Shown here: positions 2-42,665 of the stretch, piece by piece
Numbering within the stretch: position 1 is the stretch's first letter
Layout: the number at the start of each line of letters is the position of its first letter
NCBI RefSeq assembly: GCF_030269305.1
Contig: NZ_BSTC01000005.1
Location: 62,001 to 126,000 of the forward strand
DNA length: 64,000 nt
Direction: 5' to 3'
From: Kineosporia sp. NBRC 101731
GTDB taxonomy: Bacteria; Actinomycetota; Actinomycetes; Actinomycetales; Kineosporiaceae
Notes under the pieces: model-generated
What the model was told of the DNA's origin: nothing
Databases searched by the model: none
What the model saw: only the letters and a program-made list of their open reading frames with translations
Made by a program: the position numbers and the translations under genes

Positions 2-820
2 GTGCAGCAGCGGTTGGACGCGGCGGCCGGATCGGCGCAGTTGAGCGAGCAGGACCGCAGCGCTATCGGCAAGAGCCTGGACCGGGTGGTGGCCGTACTG
101 CTCATGGAGGAGGAGAACCAGGGCGGTGGTGCCCCGGCCGACCTGGCGGTGCAGTCGGGTCAGCAGGGGCTGAGCGTCGAACGGGTGACGGTGGTCGGAG
201 CCCTGATCGACGAATTGATCGATCGGCACTTCGGTCTGGGCCGCCCGCAGGCGCCCACACCGCGCTCGGCCTCGGGCCGATCACCGGTACTCTCCCGGGT
301 CGAAGCGCCTCAGCAGCGCAGCGAAGCCCGTGGCTATGACGTGCTCACCGCATTGATCGCCGGTCTCGACGATGCTCCGGCTTCAGTGGGGGCAGTGACG
401 GAACAGCCCGGCTCGCAGCAAGTCGTGCCGGATCCTGGTCAGCCACCGGCACCAGTACCGGGGGCGCTACCCCTGCACCCGGCTCCACTGCCGGAAGGCT
501 CCGAGGGGGGACACGGCACGTCGGCCGGAACCGGAGCATCGACAGGCTTGTGGGTCGAGCCCGTCCCCGCCGGACATTCGGTTCAGGTGCTGGTCGAGGA
601 TGAGGACGACGAGACGGACGACGGTGACGAGAACCCGGATTTGGCGGGCACCGATGACTCCGATGAGACCGAAACCCGCGACGACCCCAGGGCACAGGCC
701 CTGTCGCTGCTGATGACACATACGCAGCCGTCCCGTACGGGCAGGAGCGGCTCGCAAGCAGGCCAGGACCACCGTGGCGACAAGAGGTCGCCGCGCCACG
801 ACGATCTGAACAAGGAATGA
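2..820 (+). CDS. Hypothetical acidic protein, possibly 5'-truncated by the window edge
   Basis: The open frame starts at a GTG on base 2, so the true start may lie upstream. The visible 272 residues have a helical N-terminal third, a Pro/Gly/Ala-rich middle and a strongly acidic stretch near residues 198-220 rich in Asp and Glu. There is no signal peptide, membrane segment or recognised domain. The stop overlaps the next start (ATGA at 817-820), so it is translationally coupled to the lectin membrane protein that follows and probably works with it. The family is not recognised; the composition suggests a largely disordered protein. Confidence 0.6.
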   Translation: MQQRLDAAAGSAQLSEQDRSAIGKSLDRVVAVLLMEEENQGGGAPADLAVQSGQQGLSVERVTVVGALIDELIDRHFGLGRPQAPTPRSASGRSPVLSRVEAPQQRSEARGYDVLTALIAGLDDAPASVGAVTEQPGSQQVVPDPGQPPAPVPGALPLHPAPLPEGSEGGHGTSAGTGASTGLWVEPVPAGHSVQVLVEDEDDETDDGDENPDLAGTDDSDETETRDDPRAQALSLLMTHTQPSRTGRSGSQAGQDHRGDKRSPRHDDLNKE

Positions 821-1797
821 ATACAGTGACAGAGAAGCCGAATTCCCCTCGCCCGCCAGCAGGTGACGCCGGCCAGCAGGATGGCAAGCCCGACGAACAC
901 GCCGAGTTTCTCGAGTCGTGGAACCGGTCGCTCCTCGGGCGCCGTCCCTCGATCACGCTGCCCTGGCGCGGGCTACGGGGTGTGGCCGTGATCGGTGTCT
1001 CGTTCGTCGCAGTTGTTGGCGTGGTCCTGGGCGGCATGGCCACGGTTCAGGCAATGTCCCGGCCCGACGCCGACAAGGCGGCTCTCACCTCCAACAGTCT
1101 GCCCACCTCCACCGCCTCCTCCACCCCGACCGGCCTGGTGAGCCCCACATCCGGGCCCACCCGGACGAAGGCCCGGCAGCGCAACGGTGAGGAGGCGGTC
1201 AGGACCCGCACCCGTACGGTCACTCAAGCGGCTGCAGGCTCCACCGCCGGTACCGCACGGCCGAAGACGAAGGAAACGACCGAACCCAGCGCGAAGAAGA
1301 CCGCCACGCAGCAGGCGGCAGCCGGAGCGACGACGAAGGCGAAGAAGTCCAACGTCGCGGCGGTCGGTCTGGTGAAAAACCTGATCACCGGCTTCTGCCT
1401 GGACCTGCCGGGCCAGTCCACGCCGGCCGAGAACGTTCTGGTGCAACAAGATACCTGTGTCAGTGGGACCGGTGACAACCAGGAGTTCCAGACCGTCTCC
1501 GCCTCGAACGGAAGTTTCCTGCTGCGCCAGAGCACCTCCCGCTGGTGCCTGGACGCCACCGGGTCCGGCAGCGTGCTGGCGGGAACTCCGGTGAACACCC
1601 ACACCTGCCTGGCCGGGGCTGCCGACAACCAGATGTTCGTCAAAGAAGCGTCCGGATCTGGATTCTTCCTGGTCAACGTCAAAAGTGGCCTTTGCCTAGA
1701 TGTCTCGAACGACGACGGCATCGATCAGCCCGGTGCCAAGCTGACATTGTCGAACTGCTCCAGCCAGGACGACCACATCTGGACCTTCACCGGCTGA
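817..1797 (+). CDS. Single-pass membrane protein with C-terminal ricin-B (beta-trefoil) lectin domain
   Basis: 326 aa. A cytoplasmic N-terminus of about 50 residues is followed by one hydrophobic segment at roughly residues 55-77, a Thr/Ala/Lys-rich linker (about 80-180) and a C-terminal ricin-B fold from about 185 to the end. The repeated pattern of paired Cys, LCLD/WCLD and DNQxF/DHIW motifs marks the trefoil repeats. The topology implies an extracellular carbohydrate-binding domain tethered to the membrane. It overlaps the preceding acidic protein by ATGA. The lectin call is firm from the motifs; the sugar bound is unknown. Confidence 0.8.
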   Translation: MNTVTEKPNSPRPPAGDAGQQDGKPDEHAEFLESWNRSLLGRRPSITLPWRGLRGVAVIGVSFVAVVGVVLGGMATVQAMSRPDADKAALTSNSLPTSTASSTPTGLVSPTSGPTRTKARQRNGEEAVRTRTRTVTQAAAGSTAGTARPKTKETTEPSAKKTATQQAAAGATTKAKKSNVAAVGLVKNLITGFCLDLPGQSTPAENVLVQQDTCVSGTGDNQEFQTVSASNGSFLLRQSTSRWCLDATGSGSVLAGTPVNTHTCLAGAADNQMFVKEASGSGFFLVNVKSGLCLDVSNDDGIDQPGAKLTLSNCSSQDDHIWTFTG

Positions 1798-5334: not shown

Positions 5335-8136
5335 TTAAAGGCGTTCCGGGGTGCTCTCGTCTTCCGGCGTCGTGAACTGCGCGGCCAGCGACACCGCCCG
5401 AACGGCCCGGTCTGACAACCCCATGTCGTGATATTCCTGAGCACATTGTTCCAAGGCGCGGCCATCGCCGTGACCTGCGCGTGCATGGAGTACAGCGAGC
5501 CCTTCCGTGCTTTTGGCGATCTCCAGGCGGGCTCCAAGTGTCTGCGCCAGCTCTAGGGCCGTTGCGAAGATGTCTTCTGCGCGGTCGTCTTCACGCTCGA
5601 GAAGACATCTGCCCCAGCTATTGAGCGTTACCGCTTCGTTGAGACGATCTTCCAGGTCGCGCTGAATCTGCAAGGCCTGGTCGAACAGGTCATCGGCCTC
5701 GATAGGCCGTCCGAGAAGGTACTCGGTCAGGGCGAGTTCACGGGTGCTCGTGCCTATCCCCGAGGAGCTGTCCACATCGTCATAAATCTCGACGGCTCTG
5801 CGGAGCGTGGCCAGAGCAGCTGGGAGGTCACCCTGCTCACGGGCCAAGATACCCAGGCCGCGCAGGGAGTTGGCTTCACCGAAGCGGTCGCCGACATCCT
5901 CGTACAGGCCCAGCGCCTCGCGGTGAGCCGCTTCGGCCTCGGTCAGACGGCCGCGGATACGCAGAACGGTTCCGCATTCGTTCAGGGCGTACCCCTGGTG
6001 AACACGGTCGCCGAGCATCCGGTAGATCGCGAGAGCCTGCTCCTGATTGCCCAATGCGGCGGCGTAGTTGCCTCGGGCGGATTCCACCAGGCCAAGGTCG
6101 CGGAGCGCGTTCGCCTGGCCGTAGGTGTCTCCGAGCTCACCGAAGATGCTCTGGGCCTGTGACTGGGCCTGCGCCGACTCGGCGAACTTTCCATTGATCC
6201 GCAGCACCATGCCCAGGTCGTGCAGGGCTCCTGCATGGGTCAGCGGGTCATTGGCTGTCAGCGCCGCGCTCAGCGCTCGGCGCTGACATTGCTCGGCCTG
6301 CTGGTAGCGGGAGGCCAGAAATTCGACGATGCCCAGATGGTTCAAGGCGAAGGATTCGTCCGCCGGGGCTGCCGATCCGGCGAGCAGAGCTACAGCCTTC
6401 TCCAGGGAACCGCGTGCCAGAGCATATTTCGCCTGGAGTCGATACAGAAGTCCCAGACGGGCCAGAGCCCTTCCCTCTTCGATCGGGTCGCCGATCATCT
6501 GAGCGCTGTCGATGGCGATCTCCTGGACCTTGACCGCTTGGTCCCAAGGGCCGGCATGCTGCAGGAAGGCGGAGAGCGCGGAACAGAGCAGCACGGTCGT
6601 CTCGTGGTTTCCCCTCTCCGCCCCGGTCTGCAGTACTGCCAGAAGATTTCCACGGTGACGCTCGAACCACCGGAGGGCGTCCTCACGGTTACGTGGTTCG
6701 TCGGGATCAGCCGGGAACTGTTCGGTTCTCGGCGTCGGCCGTACACGCCCGAGCCAGCGATCAGCCGCGTTCGCCTTCTCCAGGTAGTACGACTCCACGC
6801 GGTCACCCGCCATATCCCTCAGGGTCGGGCTCAGGTGCATCTGCGAGCGGGCTGATGCGTAGGCACGCACCAGGTCGTGAAATCGATAGCGTCCGGCGTC
6901 GGTCTCTTCGAGAAGGTGATCAGCGTGGAGTGACTCGATCTCATCGACCGCTGTAAACATCTCGGTGCCCGCCAGAGCCGCGGCGATAGGGGCATCGAGA
7001 TCCGAACCGGCGAAGGTTCCCAGATACAGGACGAAGTTCTGGCGAGAGACAGGCAGCTCGTCGAAGGACAGATCGAGCACGCTGGAGACGCCGTTCTCAC
7101 CGGCCAGGTAGTGCGGAAGGCGATCCCGGACCTGGGTCAGTCGGATGATCAGGTCTTCGATCGTCCATGACGGGTGGTAGCGAAACCGGGCGGCAAGGAG
7201 CGAGATGGCCAGGGGCAGATTGCCGCACATCGCGGTGACGACCTCGACCCGGTCGCGCGGCAGAGTCCGAGGATCGCGGCCGGCGAGATTCAGGAACAGA
7301 TCGGCGGCGTGGGTCAAGGGTAAGACATCCAGAACCTGCGCGGACTCGGCGAGCTCGAACAACCGTCGTCGGCTGGTCACCAGAACGAGGCTTCTCGGTG
7401 ACTCCGGCAGCAAAGGCTCGACCTGGGCGTAGCTGCGGACATTGTCGAAAACAATGATCAGCCGCTGATCAGCGACAAGGGCACGCCACACCAGACTCCG
7501 GGCACGGACGGTGGCCTGGTCATCGACTCCCTGGGGGATGGCGGATGCCGGTACTCCCAGAATGACCAGCAGGGACGACAGCGCCTCGGCCGGGTTGACC
7601 GGATCTCGGCCCGGCGTATAACCGTCCAGGTTCATGAATACCTGACCGTCGGGGAAATCCCCTGTGAGTAGGTGCGCCACGTGTGTGGCGAACGTCGACT
7701 TCCCTACCCCCGGCATTCCGTCCAAGGCCTGAACCGGCAACGGCAGGCCTGATGCCAGGATCTGCCGGCACCGAGCGATCAGGGCATCGGATTCCTGTTC
7801 GCGGTCGACGAAGGCAAGGGCCGGGGTGGGAAGCGTACGAAGAACTGTCGGCACATTGGTGTCGGTGACGGGATGATCGGCTACGACTTCTGCCGGTTCC
7901 TCGTCGTCGAGCATGGTGAGGGCGACCGCAATGAACAACCCGGCGACGGCTCCGATGCCCAGGAACACCCACGGATGGTCTTGAACCGGCTTCAGCCAGC
8001 TCGGCCACGAAGACTCAGCTGACGCAAGGTTCGTAGCCATCCCGACCAGAGACGTCACGAAGAAGGACAGAGCAGCCAGCAGTCCTATCCGCCAGCGACC
8101 CCGCCGGCGGGACGATGCAGTGCGGTCATCTGTCAC
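5335..8136 (-). CDS. Membrane-anchored NB-ARC (STAND) NTPase with TPR repeats, FxsT-like
   Basis: 933 aa from the GTG at 8136, which overlaps the upstream GNAT stop (GTGA). Two membrane helices lie near residues 17-37 and 54-73. An NB-ARC NTPase follows, with P-loop GMPGVGKST (140-148), Walker B LIIVFDN (226-232), LVTSR (252-256) and a GNLPLA motif near 305. Tandem TPRs fill roughly residues 520-920. STAND proteins of this build act as signal-sensing switches, with the TPRs as sensor. The gene ends an operon with an FxsB-like radical SAM enzyme; NB-ARC/TPR partners are known in FxSxx-COOH peptide systems. Unlike SARP regulators it has no DNA-binding domain. NTPase and TPR calls are firm; the link to the peptide is inferred from synteny. 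Confidence 0.85.
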   Translation of the reverse strand: MTDDRTASSRRRGRWRIGLLAALSFFVTSLVGMATNLASAESSWPSWLKPVQDHPWVFLGIGAVAGLFIAVALTMLDDEEPAEVVADHPVTDTNVPTVLRTLPTPALAFVDREQESDALIARCRQILASGLPLPVQALDGMPGVGKSTFATHVAHLLTGDFPDGQVFMNLDGYTPGRDPVNPAEALSSLLVILGVPASAIPQGVDDQATVRARSLVWRALVADQRLIIVFDNVRSYAQVEPLLPESPRSLVLVTSRRRLFELAESAQVLDVLPLTHAADLFLNLAGRDPRTLPRDRVEVVTAMCGNLPLAISLLAARFRYHPSWTIEDLIIRLTQVRDRLPHYLAGENGVSSVLDLSFDELPVSRQNFVLYLGTFAGSDLDAPIAAALAGTEMFTAVDEIESLHADHLLEETDAGRYRFHDLVRAYASARSQMHLSPTLRDMAGDRVESYYLEKANAADRWLGRVRPTPRTEQFPADPDEPRNREDALRWFERHRGNLLAVLQTGAERGNHETTVLLCSALSAFLQHAGPWDQAVKVQEIAIDSAQMIGDPIEEGRALARLGLLYRLQAKYALARGSLEKAVALLAGSAAPADESFALNHLGIVEFLASRYQQAEQCQRRALSAALTANDPLTHAGALHDLGMVLRINGKFAESAQAQSQAQSIFGELGDTYGQANALRDLGLVESARGNYAAALGNQEQALAIYRMLGDRVHQGYALNECGTVLRIRGRLTEAEAAHREALGLYEDVGDRFGEANSLRGLGILAREQGDLPAALATLRRAVEIYDDVDSSSGIGTSTRELALTEYLLGRPIEADDLFDQALQIQRDLEDRLNEAVTLNSWGRCLLEREDDRAEDIFATALELAQTLGARLEIAKSTEGLAVLHARAGHGDGRALEQCAQEYHDMGLSDRAVRAVSLAAQFTTPEDESTPERL

Positions 8137-8618
8137 TGTTCGGGTTTCGACCAACGGTAGTAGACCTTGCCCTCGTCCTCTTTGAATCCCTGAGCAGTGT
8201 AGAACCGTGTGGCTGTGGGGTTGTTGCGGTCGGCGGTCCATTCCACCCGCGAACAGTCCTCGCGCGAATTCGCGATCTGCAGTATCTGCTCGAAGAGCAA
8301 CGTGCCCAGACCTTTTCCGCGATGGCTCTCGGCCACGAACAGCTCTTTGACGAAGAGGGTATGGGTGGCTCCGGAGGCCGGCCAGAGAAATGAATACGAG
8401 GCAAAGCCTATGAGCGCCTGGCTCGAGCCGTCGAAGCAGACCAACGCCTGCGCCATCGGGAAGTCGCCGAACAGGGCCCGACGGGTTTGGGCGGTCAAGA
8501 CCTCAGTGGAATCAATATGGACTGCACCGTAATACTTTTCAATATCCCCGAGTAATTCGACGATGGCATCGAGGTCTTGTTCTTCAGCTGATCGGAGTGT
8601 TGCATCCAAGGTGGTCAT
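8133..8618 (-). CDS. GNAT-family N-acetyltransferase
   Basis: 161 aa from ATG 8618 (an ATG four codons upstream is possible). The acetyl-CoA binding motif A is clear: LFVAESHRGKGLGTLLFEQI at about residues 96-115, followed by a typical ATRFYTAQGF motif B. It lies between the radical SAM gene and the NB-ARC/TPR gene and overlaps the latter by GTGA, so all three are co-translated. It may acetylate the modified peptide (tailoring or self-protection), or an unrelated substrate. The role in a RiPP pathway is inference from position only. Confidence 0.85.
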   Translation of the reverse strand: MTTLDATLRSAEEQDLDAIVELLGDIEKYYGAVHIDSTEVLTAQTRRALFGDFPMAQALVCFDGSSQALIGFASYSFLWPASGATHTLFVKELFVAESHRGKGLGTLLFEQILQIANSREDCSRVEWTADRNNPTATRFYTAQGFKEDEGKVYYRWSKPEQ

Positions 8619-8663
8619 CCTCGCCCCCATTACGAGCGGTCAAGAGAGATCAACGCTACCCCA

Positions 8664-9785
8664 TCAGGTCGGCGAGATGGCCGTTAGACGCCTTTCGGTC
8701 GCGCTGGCCACATGCCTGATCAAGACCTGCAGGTCGTCGCAGTACACCGATGGATTGAGGTAACCGGTCCCGACGGCGAAACGATGGGGCTTGTACCCGC
8801 CGCCGCAGATGGATACCAGTTCACAGGAACGGCATACCTCACCAAGGTCGTCCCATGATCCACTGACCCGATCGTTCAGGCCCGGGTGCCCACAGGCGTC
8901 CTCAAGCGTGTTCTCGAAGACAGACAGCCCCAGCTGGCTTTCACCCGGGCGGACAGCGCGCAGAGCGTCATACCCCTCGATGCCGCCGTCGGACTCGATC
9001 GTGACCATGCCCGACCCGGCCAGCCCGAGAGAATCGACCGCTCCGCGAGCTCCCAGCCGCAGAGCCACGATGTCGTCGAACATGCGCACACGGACCCGGC
9101 CCGGGCTGGTGTGCCATCGATCGAACACATCGCACAGCCACCGCCCGTACTCGGCTGCGTGCCCCGGAGTTCGTAGAGGTGGCGCCTGATGGGTCGCGTG
9201 GGGGAGAGCGAAGTCGATCATCGGTGCGCCCAGGTCGGCAAGATAGTCGTACGTCGCTACTGGATCGGCCCGCAGGTCTATCACCGCCAGCACACCGGCC
9301 AGCACGTCGTCTTTCTGCCGGAGCAGTCGTACGCCCTCGGCCGCGCCCGCCGCTGTGGACTGGCCGCGATGCCCTCGACGATGCAGGTCGTTGACTTCGG
9401 GAGGCCCGTCCAGGCTCACTCCGACCTTGACCTGATACTCACTGAACAGATCCGCCCAGCGCTCGTCGACCAGGACACCGTTGGTCTGCAAGACGTACGA
9501 CACCTGGACGGGGGCCAATCGCGACCTGATGTCCGACAGCAGTTCGCGCATTCGCCGTAATCCCAGAAGCAACGGCTCGCCACCGTGAAAAACGACGTTG
9601 ACCGTTGCCAGGCCCTGGCTTTCGCAGTACTCCCGAATTCTGTCGGTCGTCGCGGTCACCACCGCGCTACTCATGCGCGCCGGTAGCGTCCGCGCGACCT
9701 GGTCGGCGGAGTTGAAGACGTAGCAGTAGTCGCAATCGATGTTGCAGCGGTTCGCGACCTTGAGAACGAACGTGTTGACCGGCAC
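8664..9785 (-). CDS. fxsB-like: FxsB-like radical SAM/SPASM peptide maturase
   Basis: 373 aa from GTG 9785, with GAGGAG 5 nt upstream. The radical SAM cluster motif CxxxCxxC is Cys14, Cys18 and Cys21, followed by YVF. FHGGEPLL, LQTNG and VSLDG are the SAM-binding and barrel motifs. The SPASM end has CRSC-ELVSICGGGYKPHRF and a late YCDD. The middle (IDLRADPVATYDYL, FALPHA, a VFDRWHT segment) and the NPSVYC end match what I know of FxsB, the FxSxx-COOH system maturase, whose relatives make cyclophane cross-links from an aromatic residue or His to a beta carbon. A 46-aa peptide gene lies just upstream. Enzyme class is firm; the exact chemistry is not visible. Confidence 0.88.
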   Translation of the reverse strand: MPVNTFVLKVANRCNIDCDYCYVFNSADQVARTLPARMSSAVVTATTDRIREYCESQGLATVNVVFHGGEPLLLGLRRMRELLSDIRSRLAPVQVSYVLQTNGVLVDERWADLFSEYQVKVGVSLDGPPEVNDLHRRGHRGQSTAAGAAEGVRLLRQKDDVLAGVLAVIDLRADPVATYDYLADLGAPMIDFALPHATHQAPPLRTPGHAAEYGRWLCDVFDRWHTSPGRVRVRMFDDIVALRLGARGAVDSLGLAGSGMVTIESDGGIEGYDALRAVRPGESQLGLSVFENTLEDACGHPGLNDRVSGSWDDLGEVCRSCELVSICGGGYKPHRFAVGTGYLNPSVYCDDLQVLIRHVASATERRLTAISPT

Positions 9786-9814
9786 GAACGCTCCTCAGGA
9801 GTGGCGGGGAGGGC

Positions 9815-9955
9815 TCAGGCCGTGGGAGTGGACGGTGAAGCGGGATGTGTGCCGGTGGCCAGCGCCGGCTCGTTGTGCTCACGCTCGATCTTCTGCTTCG
9901 CCAAGGCAATGGCCTGATCGAGCGCGTCGGGTGCGGTGACGTCGTGGTCTCTCAC
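9815..9955 (-). CDS. Candidate RiPP precursor peptide (46 aa)
   Basis: GTG start at 9955 with a strong GAAGGAG (9961-9967) 5 nt upstream; stop at 9815-9817, 29 nt before the radical SAM start. The N-terminal half is acidic then helical (APDALDQAIALAKQKIEREH), as expected of a leader. The C-terminal half is small-residue-rich with two His (HNEP and THPASPS), ending PTPTA. It lacks the FxSxx-COOH end of canonical FxsA peptides, so any cross-link would have to use His. GC at third codon positions is high, which supports coding. Size, position and ribosome site make it the natural substrate candidate. Confidence 0.7.
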   Translation of the reverse strand: MRDHDVTAPDALDQAIALAKQKIEREHNEPALATGTHPASPSTPTA

Positions 9956-10066
9956 AGCATCTCCTTCGTCGAAAATTCAACGTAGTACGTCCGCATCGGA
10001 CGCTAAAGAAGAGTCGGGCCTAGGTCAACGAGAGTGCAATTTGGGTGCCGAAAGCAGATCCGGACG

Positions 10067-10657
10067 TCAGTTGCGGGTGTTGACCAGCAGCCCGTCCAGA
10101 ACGAACCGCAGCCGGCGCCGGTAGTCGTCGCGGGGCTGCTGGTCGCAGGCCCGCACCACCACGCCGCGTTCCAGGATCAGCTGGTTGATGTCGTCCGGGG
10201 TGATGTCGGCCCGTACCGTGCCCGCCTGTTGCGCGGCGCAGAGCAGGCCGGAGGCGAACTGCTGGGCACCGGCACACAGGTGGCTGAGGGGTTCGGAGTC
10301 GGGGGTCGTGCGCATCAGGACGTCGTTCGCGGCCGGCTCGTCGAACTGCAGGAGCCAGATGCCCAGCAGATACTGCTCGAACCGGTCCCGGGGGTCGTGC
10401 AGTTGTTCCACCGTCGCGATGATGTCCTGGATGCGCTCGGCCACCAGCTCGTCGACGACCGCGTCGATCAGGCCGCGGCGGCTGCCGAATCGGTGGTAGA
10501 TGGTGCCTTTGCTGACCCCGGCGGCCTGGGCGACCTCTTCCAGGGGGGAGTTGAGGCCGCCGGAGCGGAAGACGTCGAGCGCGGCCCGGCGGATGCCCTC
10601 GGTGTTGCGCCGGGCATCGGCCCGCCGAGGCCGGCCCGGCGTCCCCGGAACGGTCAC
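10067..10657 (-). CDS. TetR/AcrR-family transcriptional regulator
   Basis: 196 aa. The N-terminal HTH is clear (PLEEVAQAAGVSKGTIYHRFGSR, about residues 38-60) and is followed by an all-helical ligand-binding domain of the SbtR/LmrA-like C-terminal type. It starts at a GTG overlapping the stop of the DsbA-like gene (GTGA at 10654-10657), so both come from one transcript. Two TTGAC-N6-GTCAA palindromes upstream of that operon are good candidates for autoregulation. Confidence 0.88.
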   Translation of the reverse strand: MTVPGTPGRPRRADARRNTEGIRRAALDVFRSGGLNSPLEEVAQAAGVSKGTIYHRFGSRRGLIDAVVDELVAERIQDIIATVEQLHDPRDRFEQYLLGIWLLQFDEPAANDVLMRTTPDSEPLSHLCAGAQQFASGLLCAAQQAGTVRADITPDDINQLILERGVVVRACDQQPRDDYRRRLRFVLDGLLVNTRN

Positions 10658-11331
10658 GCGGGCTGTGCGGCCCGGTCTTGCCAGGACAGATCCAGTGCCC
10701 GGCGGAACATTTCGACGGGCTGGGCACCGGAGATCGCGCGCTTGCCGTCGAACACGAAGAACGGCACGCCATTGATGCCCATCTGCTGGGCGGCGGCGAC
10801 ATCGGCCTCGAAGTCGGCCTCGTACGCGTCGCTACTCAGGGCGGCGATCACGGCCTCGCGCGAAAAGCCCAGTTCGACAGCCAGATCGGCGAGGACGCCG
10901 TGGTCGGCGAGGTCGAGGCCCTCGGTGAACTCGGCGCGGAACAGGCGCAGTACCATCTCGTGGTCGCGCCCCTCCGCCTTCGCGAAGTGGATCAGCCGGT
11001 GCGCGTCTTTGGTGTTGAAGACCAGCGAGTCGGCGAAGCGGTAGTCCAGCCCGGCCTCGGCGCCCTGGGCGGTGAGGTGCTGGTGCGAGGCGGCCAGCTG
11101 ATCGGGGGACATGCCCCGGTCTTTGATCAGGTACTCGGTGACCGGGCGGGTCTCGACGGCCCCGGGGTGCAGCTGGAAGCTGTGGTAGCGCACCTGAACC
11201 GAGGACGCGTGGGGGAACGCCTCGATCGCCTGCTGGAGATGGGCGTCGCCCAGGTAGCAGAACGGGCAGACGACGTCGCTCCAGACGTCGATGGTGATCG
11301 GCTCCGCGGCGGGCCCGAATGCCCCCGCCAT
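10654..11331 (-). CDS. DsbA-family (FrnE-like) oxidoreductase
   Basis: 225 aa from ATG 11331; an in-frame start 9 codons upstream is possible. The thioredoxin fold has CPFC at residues 22-25 in the FrnE/2-hydroxychromene-2-carboxylate isomerase context (DVWSDVVCPFCYLG), an inserted helical domain, and cis-Pro GVPFFVF near residue 190. There is no signal peptide, so it acts in the cytoplasm as a thiol oxidoreductase or polyketide-type isomerase. It is first in an operon with TetR, suggesting induction by a small molecule or redox stress. Confidence 0.88.
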   Translation of the reverse strand: MAGAFGPAAEPITIDVWSDVVCPFCYLGDAHLQQAIEAFPHASSVQVRYHSFQLHPGAVETRPVTEYLIKDRGMSPDQLAASHQHLTAQGAEAGLDYRFADSLVFNTKDAHRLIHFAKAEGRDHEMVLRLFRAEFTEGLDLADHGVLADLAVELGFSREAVIAALSSDAYEADFEADVAAAQQMGINGVPFFVFDGKRAISGAQPVEMFRRALDLSWQDRAAQPA

Positions 11332-11440
11332 CAGAGACACACTCCGTCGACGCCGCACACCGCGGACTCGTCGGATGATTCCAGCATGGTCAGCACCGGT
11401 ATCACCGGCAGAGCCGGCTCGACCTCGGTGCTCACAGAAG

Positions 11441-39806: not shown

Positions 39807-42665
39807 TCACGCGTAAGCGCCGAAGGACTCGTAGCCCCCGGGCTCCTCGACCGGGGGCTCGGGTGCGGGCTCGGGCTCTTCCGGCGCCGGCCCGGAGACC
39901 TCTTCCAGGTCGTCGATCAGGCGGATGATGTCGGCCACGAGCACCTGCTGGCCGCGTACCAGCTCGGCTGCGGTGTCGACGTTCTCGCGTACCTTGCCGA
40001 CCGCGCCACCGACCTTGCCGAAGGCGGACTCGCCGCGCCGGGAGGCCTCGTAGCCGTGGTTGATATCCAGCCGGACGTCGTCCACCAGGCGGATGACCTC
40101 CATGGCGGCCTGGCTGGAGCGCTCGGCCAGGCGCCGGACCTCCTCCACGATCACCGCCAGGCTCTCCTTGGCGACCTGGTCGCGGCCCAGCTCGATCGAC
40201 ATGGTGAAGGCCGCCGCGTTGGACTGCCGTGCGAGATCGGCGAGGAACTGGGAGACCTCGCTGACGTGGTTGGCGGTGCGCTGGATCATGGAGAGCGAGG
40301 TCAGGGTGGCGGGCGCCGAGTTGGTGCCGGTCATGGCCTCGTCGTGGGCCTGGCTGAGCATCACGTCGGAGCGGGTACAGCGGGCCGCCACCAGGGCGGT
40401 GATCTCGGAGAGCTTCTGCGCGGTCTCGGACATCGCCCGGCTCTTCACCTGCAGGCGGTACTGAAGGCTGACGAAACTGCTGACGTCGTAGGAGTAGTGG
40501 ACTACACGCAGAGGCTTTCCGTCGAGGTCGAGGATCGGGTTGTAGCTGGCCTGGATCCATACGTCGCGACCGTACTTGCCCTTGCGCTGGAACCGCCCGG
40601 AGATCAGCTCGCCCTTGCGCAGGCGCATCCAGAAGTCGCGGTACTCCTCCGAGGTGACGTACTCGCGGGAGCAGAACATGCTGTGCGGCTGCCCGAGCAC
40701 CTCCTCGGCCGCGTAACCCATGGTGCGCAGGTAGTTCTCGTTGGCTGAAAGAGTCTTTCCGGAGAGGTCGAACTCGGCCACGGACTGGGCCCGGTCGATG
40801 GCCTCCAGCTTTCCGCCCAGGTCCACGCTGCGGGTCTTCTCCTGGGTGACGTCGACGGCGAACTTGACGATCTTGGTCGGGATCCCGTCGGCGTCCAGCA
40901 CCGGGCTGTAGGTGGCGCGGATCCACACCTCGGCACCGGACTTGGTGACGCGGCGGTACTCGCCCCCGTCGTGCTGGCCGCGCCCCAGGCGTTCCCAGAA
41001 CTGCTGGTACTCGGGGGCCTGGGCCTCGTCCGGGCGCACGAGCAGGCTGTGGTGGCGGCCGATGAGTTCCTCCGCCTGGTACCCGAGCAGATCGAGGAAG
41101 TTCTGGTTCGCGCCGATGATCTTCCCGGACGTGTCGAACTCGATCATCATCTGGGACCGGTTGATGGCCGCCATCTTCCCGGCGTAGTCGGCGCTGCGCC
41201 GCTTCTCCTCGGTGACGTCGAGCGCGTACTTGATCACTTTCCAGGGCCGGCCGTCCGGGTCGAGCACCGGGTTGTAGGTAGCACGCAGCCACACGTCGTC
41301 GCCGTAGCGCGAGCGGCGCCGGAACTCCCCGGTGACGAACTCGCCCCGCCGCAGCCGGCGCCAGAACTCCTCGTACTGCACCGGATCCTCGTCCTCGGCC
41401 AGGAAGATCCGGTGCTGCCGGCCGATCACGTCGCCCAGCTCGTAACCCATGATCATGAGGAAGTTGTCGTTGGCCGTGAGGACCGTCCCGTCCAGGCCGA
41501 ACTCGATCACGGCCTGGGACAGGTCGATCGCGGCGACCTTGCCCTCGAACTCGGCCGTGCGGTTCTTCTCCGCCGTGATGTCGAGGGCGTACTTGACCAC
41601 CTTCCAGGGCCGGCCGTCCGGATCGAGCACCGGGTTGTAGGTGGCCTGCAGCCAGATGTCGCGCCCGTCGCGCCCGACCCGGTGGAACTCGCCGGAGACG
41701 AACTCACCGGCGCGCAGCCCGGCCCAGAACTCCTGGTAGGCGGCCGACGCGGCGTACTCCGGGTCGACGAAGATCTGGTGGTTGAACCCGACCACCTCGG
41801 CGCGGTCGTAGTCCACGATCGCCAGGAAGTTGTCGTTCACGGCCGTGACCGTGCCGTCGAGCGCGAACTCGATCACCGCCTGGGACCGGTTGATCGCGGC
41901 GACCCGGCCCTCCAGATCGGTCTGCCGGCGCATCTCACCGTCGATGACCCGGGCGATCAGCACGACCCGGACGATGCGGCCGTCGGTGCCGGGGATCGGT
42001 ACGTAGTGTCCGCGCAGCCAGACCGGTTCGCCCTGCCGATCGCGGCGCCGGAACACCCCGCCCGCGGACTGGCCGGCGCAGACCCGGTCCCACAGGTCGT
42101 GCAGGGCCGCGCTGTCCGCCTCCTCCGGTGAGCACAGCCGGGTGTGCGGCAGGCCGGTGAACTCGTCCGCCGCGTACCCGAAGCGTTCCAGGGCCCAGCG
42201 GTCGGCGGTGATGATCTCGCCCGAGGTGGTGAACTCGATCTGCATCGTGCCCTCGGTGAGGGCCTGGAGCTCGGCCTGCCACTCCGCCATCGCCGCGACC
42301 GTCTCGCTGAGGTCGCGCAGCATCAGCAGGGTGCGTGCCCCGGTCCGGGCGCGGTGCGACAGCCGGACGGCGCGCACGTGGTCCGGTGTCAGGGTCAGCG
42401 CCAGCGGGCGGTCCTGCGAGGCCCAGCCGGGACGGGGCTGCGCGTCGGGCAGGTTCTCCAGGGAGCGGCCCAGCAGTTCCTCGACGGTCGATCCGGTCAG
42501 CGTCTGAGGTTCGATGCCCAGGGCCTGTGCGGTCTGCCACGTCAGCGAGACGACACGCTGGGTGTCGGTGTCCACCACCAGCACCAGATACCCGGACAGC
42601 ACGGTCTCGACACACGCAGCTGACAGCGCGGCCTCGTCCACCTCGAGAACCTCGGATTCACCCAC
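39807..42665 (-). CDS. Soluble six-PAS methyl-accepting chemotaxis-like sensor
   Basis: 952 aa, no membrane segment. Six PAS domains lie at about residues 15-120, 130-245, 255-367, 377-489, 499-611 and 619-730. The last four are near-copies with a 122-aa period, each starting near VAAINRSQAVIEF and containing a FWxxLRxGEF and an ATYNPVLDPDG motif. A short MCP signalling helix pair follows (about 740-920, core ESLAVIVEEVRRLAERSSQA) and then a Glu/Pro-rich tail. The build recalls BdlA-type cytoplasmic receptors. No che genes are nearby. The GTG start at 42665 is tentative. Confidence 0.85.
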   Translation of the reverse strand: MGESEVLEVDEAALSAACVETVLSGYLVLVVDTDTQRVVSLTWQTAQALGIEPQTLTGSTVEELLGRSLENLPDAQPRPGWASQDRPLALTLTPDHVRAVRLSHRARTGARTLLMLRDLSETVAAMAEWQAELQALTEGTMQIEFTTSGEIITADRWALERFGYAADEFTGLPHTRLCSPEEADSAALHDLWDRVCAGQSAGGVFRRRDRQGEPVWLRGHYVPIPGTDGRIVRVVLIARVIDGEMRRQTDLEGRVAAINRSQAVIEFALDGTVTAVNDNFLAIVDYDRAEVVGFNHQIFVDPEYAASAAYQEFWAGLRAGEFVSGEFHRVGRDGRDIWLQATYNPVLDPDGRPWKVVKYALDITAEKNRTAEFEGKVAAIDLSQAVIEFGLDGTVLTANDNFLMIMGYELGDVIGRQHRIFLAEDEDPVQYEEFWRRLRRGEFVTGEFRRRSRYGDDVWLRATYNPVLDPDGRPWKVIKYALDVTEEKRRSADYAGKMAAINRSQMMIEFDTSGKIIGANQNFLDLLGYQAEELIGRHHSLLVRPDEAQAPEYQQFWERLGRGQHDGGEYRRVTKSGAEVWIRATYSPVLDADGIPTKIVKFAVDVTQEKTRSVDLGGKLEAIDRAQSVAEFDLSGKTLSANENYLRTMGYAAEEVLGQPHSMFCSREYVTSEEYRDFWMRLRKGELISGRFQRKGKYGRDVWIQASYNPILDLDGKPLRVVHYSYDVSSFVSLQYRLQVKSRAMSETAQKLSEITALVAARCTRSDVMLSQAHDEAMTGTNSAPATLTSLSMIQRTANHVSEVSQFLADLARQSNAAAFTMSIELGRDQVAKESLAVIVEEVRRLAERSSQAAMEVIRLVDDVRLDINHGYEASRRGESAFGKVGGAVGKVRENVDTAAELVRGQQVLVADIIRLIDDLEEVSGPAPEEPEPAPEPPVEEPGGYESFGAYA

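Follow-up and report, generated by a model that had tools for sequence, protein, structure and literature searches.

Judged by sequence, the minus-strand operon described here is a far-diverged, outlying relative of the named haaA-haaB-haaN-haaT cassette. By homology to that cassette, its small peptide probably acquires a cross-link between a histidine and an alanine. The operon lies within a window of 64,000 nucleotides (the whole stretch under study) from a soil-type actinobacterium, in whose numbering all gene coordinates are given (Table 1).

Operon layout and family assignment

Four minus-strand genes were confirmed, encoding a 46-aa peptide, a radical SAM/SPASM enzyme, a GNAT and an NB-ARC/TPR protein. 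The tight coupling claimed in the first-pass annotation was borne out, with 29 nt between the peptide and radical SAM genes, 33 nt between the radical SAM and GNAT genes, and a 4-nt overlap of the GNAT gene 3' end with the NB-ARC/TPR gene start. Given these short gaps and the overlap, a single transcript is expected. As read from the sequence, a second ATG at 8615 in the GNAT gene has a better ribosome-binding site and so provides an alternative start. The NB-ARC/TPR frame opens at 8241, with the GTG at 8136 as its likely start.

Table 1 Features of the Haa-like operon and its leader region
Feature	Position	Strand	Description
haaA-like precursor peptide	9815..9955	-	46 aa from a GTG start; leader followed by the core ...GTHPASPSTPTA
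haaB-like radical SAM/SPASM maturase, FxsB subfamily	8664..9785	-	373 aa, GTG start
haaN-like GNAT N-acetyltransferase	8133..8630	-	165 aa
haaT-like protein	5335..8136	-	933 aa; membrane hairpin, NB-ARC NTPase, TPR array
P-loop GMPGVGKST of HaaT NB-ARC domain	7693..7719	-	read from sequence
Two-segment HaaT membrane hairpin, short loop with WPSWL	7903..8094	-	predicted from hydropathy
H37-P38-A39-S40, predicted C2(His37)-Cbeta(Ala39) cross-link site	9836..9847	-	motif and homology
Intergenic leader region	9956..10066	-	CTACGTT 9979-9985; perfect palindrome CGTCCG-ATG-CGGACG 9988-10002

The radical SAM enzyme scored 377.2 bits against the FxsB subfamily model TIGR04269 (cut-off 370; E 7.9e-113), in line with its earlier description as FxsB-like. 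The best NCBIfam matches of the GNAT and the NB-ARC/TPR protein were HaaN (NF041716; 161 bits, under the cut-off of 250; E 1.8e-47) and HaaT (NF041717; 815 bits, under the cut-off of 1125; E 6.8e-245), respectively, and no match of the peptide to the HaaA model NF041708 was reported. The E values of the three matches are not those of chance. Since three of the four products (peptide, HaaN and HaaT) missed the curated cut-offs, the operon was filed as a variant rather than an equivalog. Likewise, the Actinoplanes precursor scored under the NF041708 cut-off (31.8 vs 55).

In a tree with 30 actinobacterial FxsB-like enzymes as the comparison group, the window enzyme fell inside the Haa clade (37 rows on one side; support 100/97; 100% of 200 bootstrap trees), as its deepest branch, a long one (1.02) that the tree program flagged as unsure. 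C14, C18, C21 and C318 were conserved in 37/37 enzymes, and C321, C327 and C349 in 36/37.

The first-pass annotation had read the operon as a possible new subtype of the FxSxx-COOH systems with an added GNAT, which now appears scarcely credible. The radical SAM enzyme does exceed the FxsB subfamily cut-off, but it groups with the Haa enzymes, apart from the 30 FxsB-like enzymes. The peptide contains no Phe and ends PSTPTA in place of an FxSxx end, and the TPR protein reached 78 bits against the FxSxx TPR model NF040586 (cut-off 300). No match to the FxsC domain (TIGR04276, E <= 1e-5) was found in the organism's own genome, the domain being present in three of the seven genomes searched. The subtype was rejected on these four grounds (peptide end, FxsC absence, FxsT score and tree). 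The annotation had correctly picked out the differing peptide end, the missing FxsC and the linked GNAT; its new combination, though, is already named in NCBIfam (HaaA NF041708, HaaN NF041716, HaaT NF041717), and its overall reading is partly supported.

Related loci and the precursor peptide

The related set comprised 36 fetched loci whose radical SAM enzyme is at least 50% identical to that of the window; as they were found by two short peptide patterns, they represent a biased sample. In 36/36 of these loci HaaN and HaaT are encoded, and a frame containing H-x-A-S lies between haaT and haaB. By the refutation test set in the first-pass annotation, this neighbourhood favours a real unit. The commonest flanking family was found in 8/37 loci. 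No HaaN or HaaT match was detected in 12 remoter radical SAM loci (33-44% identical; L038, L039, L042-L044, L080-L085 and L087), searched at E <= 1e-10 apart from L039, which comes from a separate search. Searches for further relatives outside Streptomyces, run without a positive control, returned 0/251, 0/35 and 0/250 genomes at E <= 1e-100. With the window, the Haa cassette reaches a deep branch beyond the fetched Streptomycetaceae and Micromonosporaceae loci, and what survives in this branch are the four genes and H-x-A-S. The peptide was strictly associated with an SSAT-like GNAT and an AfsR-like membrane STAND protein. The annotation of NZ_CP108236.1 reads haaT-haaA-FxsB family-haaN.

The window peptide gene sits directly upstream of the radical SAM gene, and its product carries H-x-A near the C-terminus (H37-P38-A39-S40). 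L12, E26, H37, A39 and S40 are common to all 36 related precursors, the invariance of H, A and S being partly a product of selection because the frames were chosen by H-x-A-S. The variable position is occupied by A (28), Q (5), S (2) or H (1) in the relatives and by Pro in 0/36. The predicted ring with Pro in the window peptide would be a natural test of HaaB tolerance. A Trp-bearing tail, present in 35/36 relatives, is lacking in the window peptide.

Taken alone, the peptide is the weakest of the four gene calls. When a profile of the 36 related precursors was run against 665 window ORFs, the peptide ranked third (E 0.59), with two other ORFs above it. This weak score, together with the absent NF041708 match, would fit a scenario in which HaaB modifies some other peptide in place of the 46-aa product. 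We consider that very unlikely given the position of the gene, its H-x-A-S and the 37/5,000 shuffles of the peptide that reached the real score against the profile. Furthermore, it was the sole ORF with H-x-A-S inside the last 13 residues among the 236 window ORFs of 40-80 aa, and the same pattern occurred in 5/2,364 other ORFs of this size from the loci examined.

Upstream of haaA, the 7-mer CTACGTT was exact in 25/37 loci (window included) and present with at most one mismatch in 34/37, compared with chance means of 0.25 and 5.3, respectively, in 300 base-order shuffles. The relatives carry it inside a longer box. By a matrix of this box (18 representatives of the 33 relatives having it), the window site ranked 8,533rd of 127,860, and a shared promoter was rejected; as the window shares only the 7-mer, none is claimed. 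A promoter scan upstream of haaA in the window reported no site. The palindrome at 9988-10002 was rejected as an operator, having one window match vs a chance mean of 1.74.

The acetyltransferase and the membrane NB-ARC/TPR protein

HaaN resembles polyamine acetyltransferases. Its predicted fold is closest to 3i9s (an integron cassette protein) and to spermidine/spermine acetyltransferases, and its nearest solved proteins are 3i9s and thialysine and diamine acetyltransferases. HaaN is unlikely to act on a lysine side chain, since lysine is absent from 30/36 related precursors; in the window peptide, lysine acetylation may be possible as the leader contains K20 and K22. HaaN could instead stand outside maturation, either silencing the finished peptide by acetylation as self-protection or acting on a small amine such as a polyamine-like metabolite. 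The nearest solved proteins are consistent with such a role, as are HaaN-like GNATs found apart from haaB, next to XRE/HTH regulators (L127, L128), in G138, and near HAD and phosphotransferase genes in NZ_CP109170.1. However, HaaN accompanies haaB in 36/36 related loci, an association as tight as for a maturation enzyme, and the protein N-terminal acetyltransferases NAA60 and NatD also turned up further down the ranking of fold matches. We therefore view a role outside maturation as a real but doubtful possibility.

Membrane anchoring of HaaT, an earlier claim, was upheld by prediction. Two hydrophobic stretches in the hydropathy profile (residues 15-35 and 54-78) are consistent with a membrane hairpin, and a two-helix hairpin was predicted in 36/36 HaaT proteins tested, window included. 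The NB-ARC domain was detected with PF00931 (E 8.7e-6). The NB-ARC and TPR region is akin to AfsR (PDB 8k60, 8jke), the match to 8k60 covering HaaT residues 107-791 (E 3.1e-57). It begins at AfsR residue 300, and the hairpin takes the place of the SARP part, which is the DNA-binding part of AfsR. HaaT resembles an AfsR that lacks the DNA-binding part and bears a conserved two-helix membrane hairpin instead. The cut-off of the AfsR model NF053617 (1430) was not reached, HaaT scoring 341 bits with a match from profile position 282.

Peptide sensing by a STAND switch, as suggested in the first-pass annotation, is a rather unlikely function for HaaT; the cross-linked peptide would be detected at the membrane as a signal or a threat marker. 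The NB-ARC and TPR architecture, the AfsR kinship and a conserved loop predicted by the positive-inside rule to face outward all point towards sensing, as does the solved STAND-TPR protein 6mfv at rank 7 in the fold search. Against this, the fold matches were mostly generic TPR proteins, the predicted model was moderate (pLDDT 78, pTM 0.58), HaaT has no effector domain besides the hairpin, and NCBI labels it a biosynthesis protein. PADLOC gave HaaT a generic TPR model only. A defence system was rejected, as this model and weak viperin matches were all that PADLOC returned.

Proposed mechanism and comparison with known systems

Gene content, motif and kinship were read directly from the data, and from them we propose the following scheme. 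The N-terminal part of the 46-aa HaaA precursor would guide it to HaaB, which with S-adenosylmethionine would form a bond between His37 C2 and Ala39 C-beta. The resulting H-P-A ring would span three residues, and 2 H would be lost in closing it. Homology argues strongly for both steps, and jointly we regard them as highly likely. A general protease may then remove the leader, being proposed because no protease or exporter gene recurs next to the cassette, and HaaN may acetylate the freed alpha-amine and not a lysine; we advance this step tentatively. In a more speculative and rather improbable last step, membrane HaaT, as an AfsR-like NTPase/TPR machine, would bind the precursor or product, with its ATP-driven switch linked to signalling, maturation or release. 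It is less probable still that HaaT is a dedicated receptor of an N-acetylated His-Ala cyclophane peptide, as a membrane-anchored NLR-like STAND ATPase with an AfsR core and a hairpin for the DNA-binding part. If true, the cassette would be a self-contained four-gene bacterial peptide-sensing circuit, and the window version, with Pro in its ring and lacking the hydrophobic tail, a distinct specificity class.

The expected chemistry has precedent. In a review (PMC11002830), HaaB is described as acting on His-Ala-Ala, joining His C2 to Ala C-beta, and ScaB as a radical SAM enzyme that also acts on His-Ala-Ala. By its published chemistry, ScaB would share the predicted His-to-Ala linkage. The closest solved radical SAM enzyme by sequence is the multiple-cyclophane synthase ChlB (PDB 9gm3; E 2.7e-73), which belongs to a radical SAM and hydroxylase fusion according to a reference title in PMC12636437, whereas HaaB is a single enzyme. 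FxSxx-COOH systems (FxsA, FxsB, FxsC, FxsT) have a maturase of the FxsB subfamily and a TPR/NB-ARC protein in common with the window, and differ from it in their peptide end; the window also lacks FxsC, matches FxsT weakly and has the added GNAT. The Haa cassette (NF041708, TIGR04269, NF041716, NF041717) has the same four adjacent gene kinds (precursor, FxsB-type radical SAM, GNAT and NB-ARC/TPR), H-x-A-S in its precursor and the same radical SAM clade. The window departs from it in gene order (A-B-N-T vs T-A-B-N in 36/36 relatives), in Pro as the variable residue, in its missing Trp-bearing tail and in sequence, with 50-55% identity to the Haa relatives in HaaB, 41-47% in HaaN and 39-41% in HaaT.

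Gene content and family assignment of the cassette

The four minus-strand genes described by the first-pass annotation were confirmed, and their spacing (29 nt, 33 nt, then a 4-nt overlap) fits one operon. The best NCBIfam match of the NB-ARC/TPR protein was HaaT (NF041717; 815 bits, below the cut-off of 1125), and that of the GNAT was HaaN (NF041716; 161 bits, below the cut-off of 250). The radical SAM/SPASM maturase (rSAM) best matched the FxsB subfamily (TIGR04269; 377 bits, above the cut-off of 370). The peptide had no NCBIfam match. Pfam likewise detected NB-ARC and TPR domains in the HaaT-like protein.

Features of the window, in window numbering
Feature	Position	Strand	Description
Four-gene cassette	5335-9955	minus	46-aa peptide, 373-aa radical SAM/SPASM protein, 165-aa GNAT, NB-ARC/TPR protein
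NB-ARC/TPR gene	8136	minus	likely start
Palindrome	9988-10002		perfect, CGTCCG-ATG-CGGACG, close upstream of the gene for the peptide
TetR-family regulator	10067-10657	minus	just upstream of the cassette; third-position GC above that of the cassette
DsbA-like oxidoreductase	10654-11358	minus	just upstream of the cassette; third-position GC above that of the cassette
326-aa protein	817-1797		ricin-type beta-trefoil lectin domain
952-aa protein	39807-42665		five PAS_3 domain stretches, methyl-accepting chemotaxis signalling domain

Related loci and kinship of the maturase

A single scan of genome contigs, queried with an alignment of two HaaB sequences, yielded 106 relatives, 80 of which were kept; 36 (L045–L079 and L086) were 50–55% identical to the window rSAM and the remaining 44 were 25–38% identical. 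The closer loci comprised 34 Streptomyces, Streptantibioticus or Actinacidiphila records, one further Streptomyces and one Actinoplanes, and all 36 carried both HaaN and HaaT, arranged T-B-N (tblastn). Neither protein was among the matches listed for L080–L085 and L087 (seven loci; tblastn, E ≤ 1e-10) or for L088–L124 (tblastn), an absence that is weak evidence because some contigs are short. The haaT frame of L073 ends after 79 aa as extracted and haaB of L078 continues into a 544-aa frame; both are frameshifts or sequencing errors.

In a tree of 74 rSAMs (37 Haa, 30 actinobacterial FxsB-like and 7 proteobacterial), all Haa proteins, including that of the window, fell on one side of a branch (support 100/97). 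The window rSAM split off first, leaving the other 36 grouped (100/95), on a long branch (1.02) of the kind whose placement the tree program warns is unsure. Amongst 394 genomes of the class, 76 had an rSAM match at E ≤ 1e-75. Besides the window's own, only one exceeded 50% identity (G642, 54%, with the contig and context of L048), the next best being 45%, and in five further genomes from this genus no match went above 41%. The distribution of the cassette is therefore sporadic. The four cassette genes had a third-position GC of 0.70–0.77 versus 0.91 and 0.89 in the two genes upstream, which is compatible with horizontal gain of the cassette.

No fifth gene recurred within 6 kb either side, and so nothing pointed to a protease or exporter dedicated to the cassette; the commonest flanking family occurred in 8/37 loci, and the window had none of the 14 commonest. 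The lack of FxsC proposed by the first-pass annotation was borne out, as its domain had no match in the window's own genome.

The precursor peptide and its upstream region

An H-x-A-S frame lay between haaT and haaB in all 36 related loci, two of which had a second, unrelated frame. The x residue was A (28), Q (5), S (2) or H (1), and the tail contained Trp in 35/36 (commonest LIWPWPL, 12/36), whereas the window peptide has HPAS followed by PSTPTA. L12, E26, H37, A39 and S40 (window numbering) were identical across the 37 precursors, for H, A and S partly because frames were selected by H-x-A-S. In the HaaA (NF041708) search (cut-off 55), a Streptomyces precursor scored 110.7 bits and the Actinoplanes precursor 31.8; the window peptide was not reported. 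Against window ORFs, a profile of the 36 precursors ranked it 3/665 (E 0.59), and shuffled versions scored as high in 37/5,000 cases. H-x-A-S with 1–9 residues to the end occurred in 5/2,364 ORFs of 40–80 aa outside haaA slots (window plus 43 loci), and the peptide was the sole such ORF of 236 in the window. Its identification therefore draws on where it lies, on the motif and on the relatedness of the neighbouring genes rather than on peptide similarity by itself.

In 33/36 related loci, the noncoding stretch separating haaT from haaA holds a conserved box (roughly TGGCCgg.tTc....TGcCg...(about 13 nt)...CTGCTACGTT), a conservation inflated by the relatedness of these loci. The box probably serves as the promoter or an operator of haaA; the window shares only CTACGTT with it. 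In the window, the palindrome is about as frequent as expected by chance.

HaaT, HaaN and comparison with known systems

HaaT residues 107–791 match AfsR from its residue 300 onward (E 3.1e-57). In place of the AfsR N-terminus are two hydrophobic segments before residue 140 in 36/36 proteins tested (window plus 35 relatives; L073 was excluded because its frame breaks). The loop between them carries W-P and spans 15–20 residues in all except Actinoplanes; N36, S39, W44, P45, L48, Q52 and W56 are invariant in a 20-sequence alignment. HaaT also contains P-loop, Walker B-like and sensor motifs. Its model was moderate (pLDDT 78.2, pTM 0.58) and matched mostly generic TPR proteins, with the STAND-TPR protein 6mfv at rank 7.

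By sequence, the solved relatives of HaaN included 3i9s, a thialysine acetyltransferase and diamine acetyltransferases. Its predicted structure (pLDDT 85.9) came closest to 3i9s and to spermidine/spermine acetyltransferases; peptide N-terminal acetyltransferases ranked lower. Lysine was absent from 30/36 related precursors and single in six, whereas the window precursor has two, both in the leader. Our preferred reading of the putative HaaN target is the alpha-amine. HaaN-like GNATs without haaB occurred in four further loci, adjoining XRE or HTH regulators (L127, L128), an XRE-like protein (L040), or HAD and phosphotransferase genes (L125); the NCBI name haaN in L125 is possibly an over-call.

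NCBI annotates NZ_CP108236.1 as haaT-haaA-FxsB family-haaN. According to PMC11002830, HaaB links C2 of His to Cbeta of Ala, and ScaB acts on His-Ala-Ala. A His-Ala cross-link is very likely in the window product. The first-pass interpretation is supported in part: systems of this kind are known and already named, while the present copy stands out from them by its sequence, gene order and core peptide.
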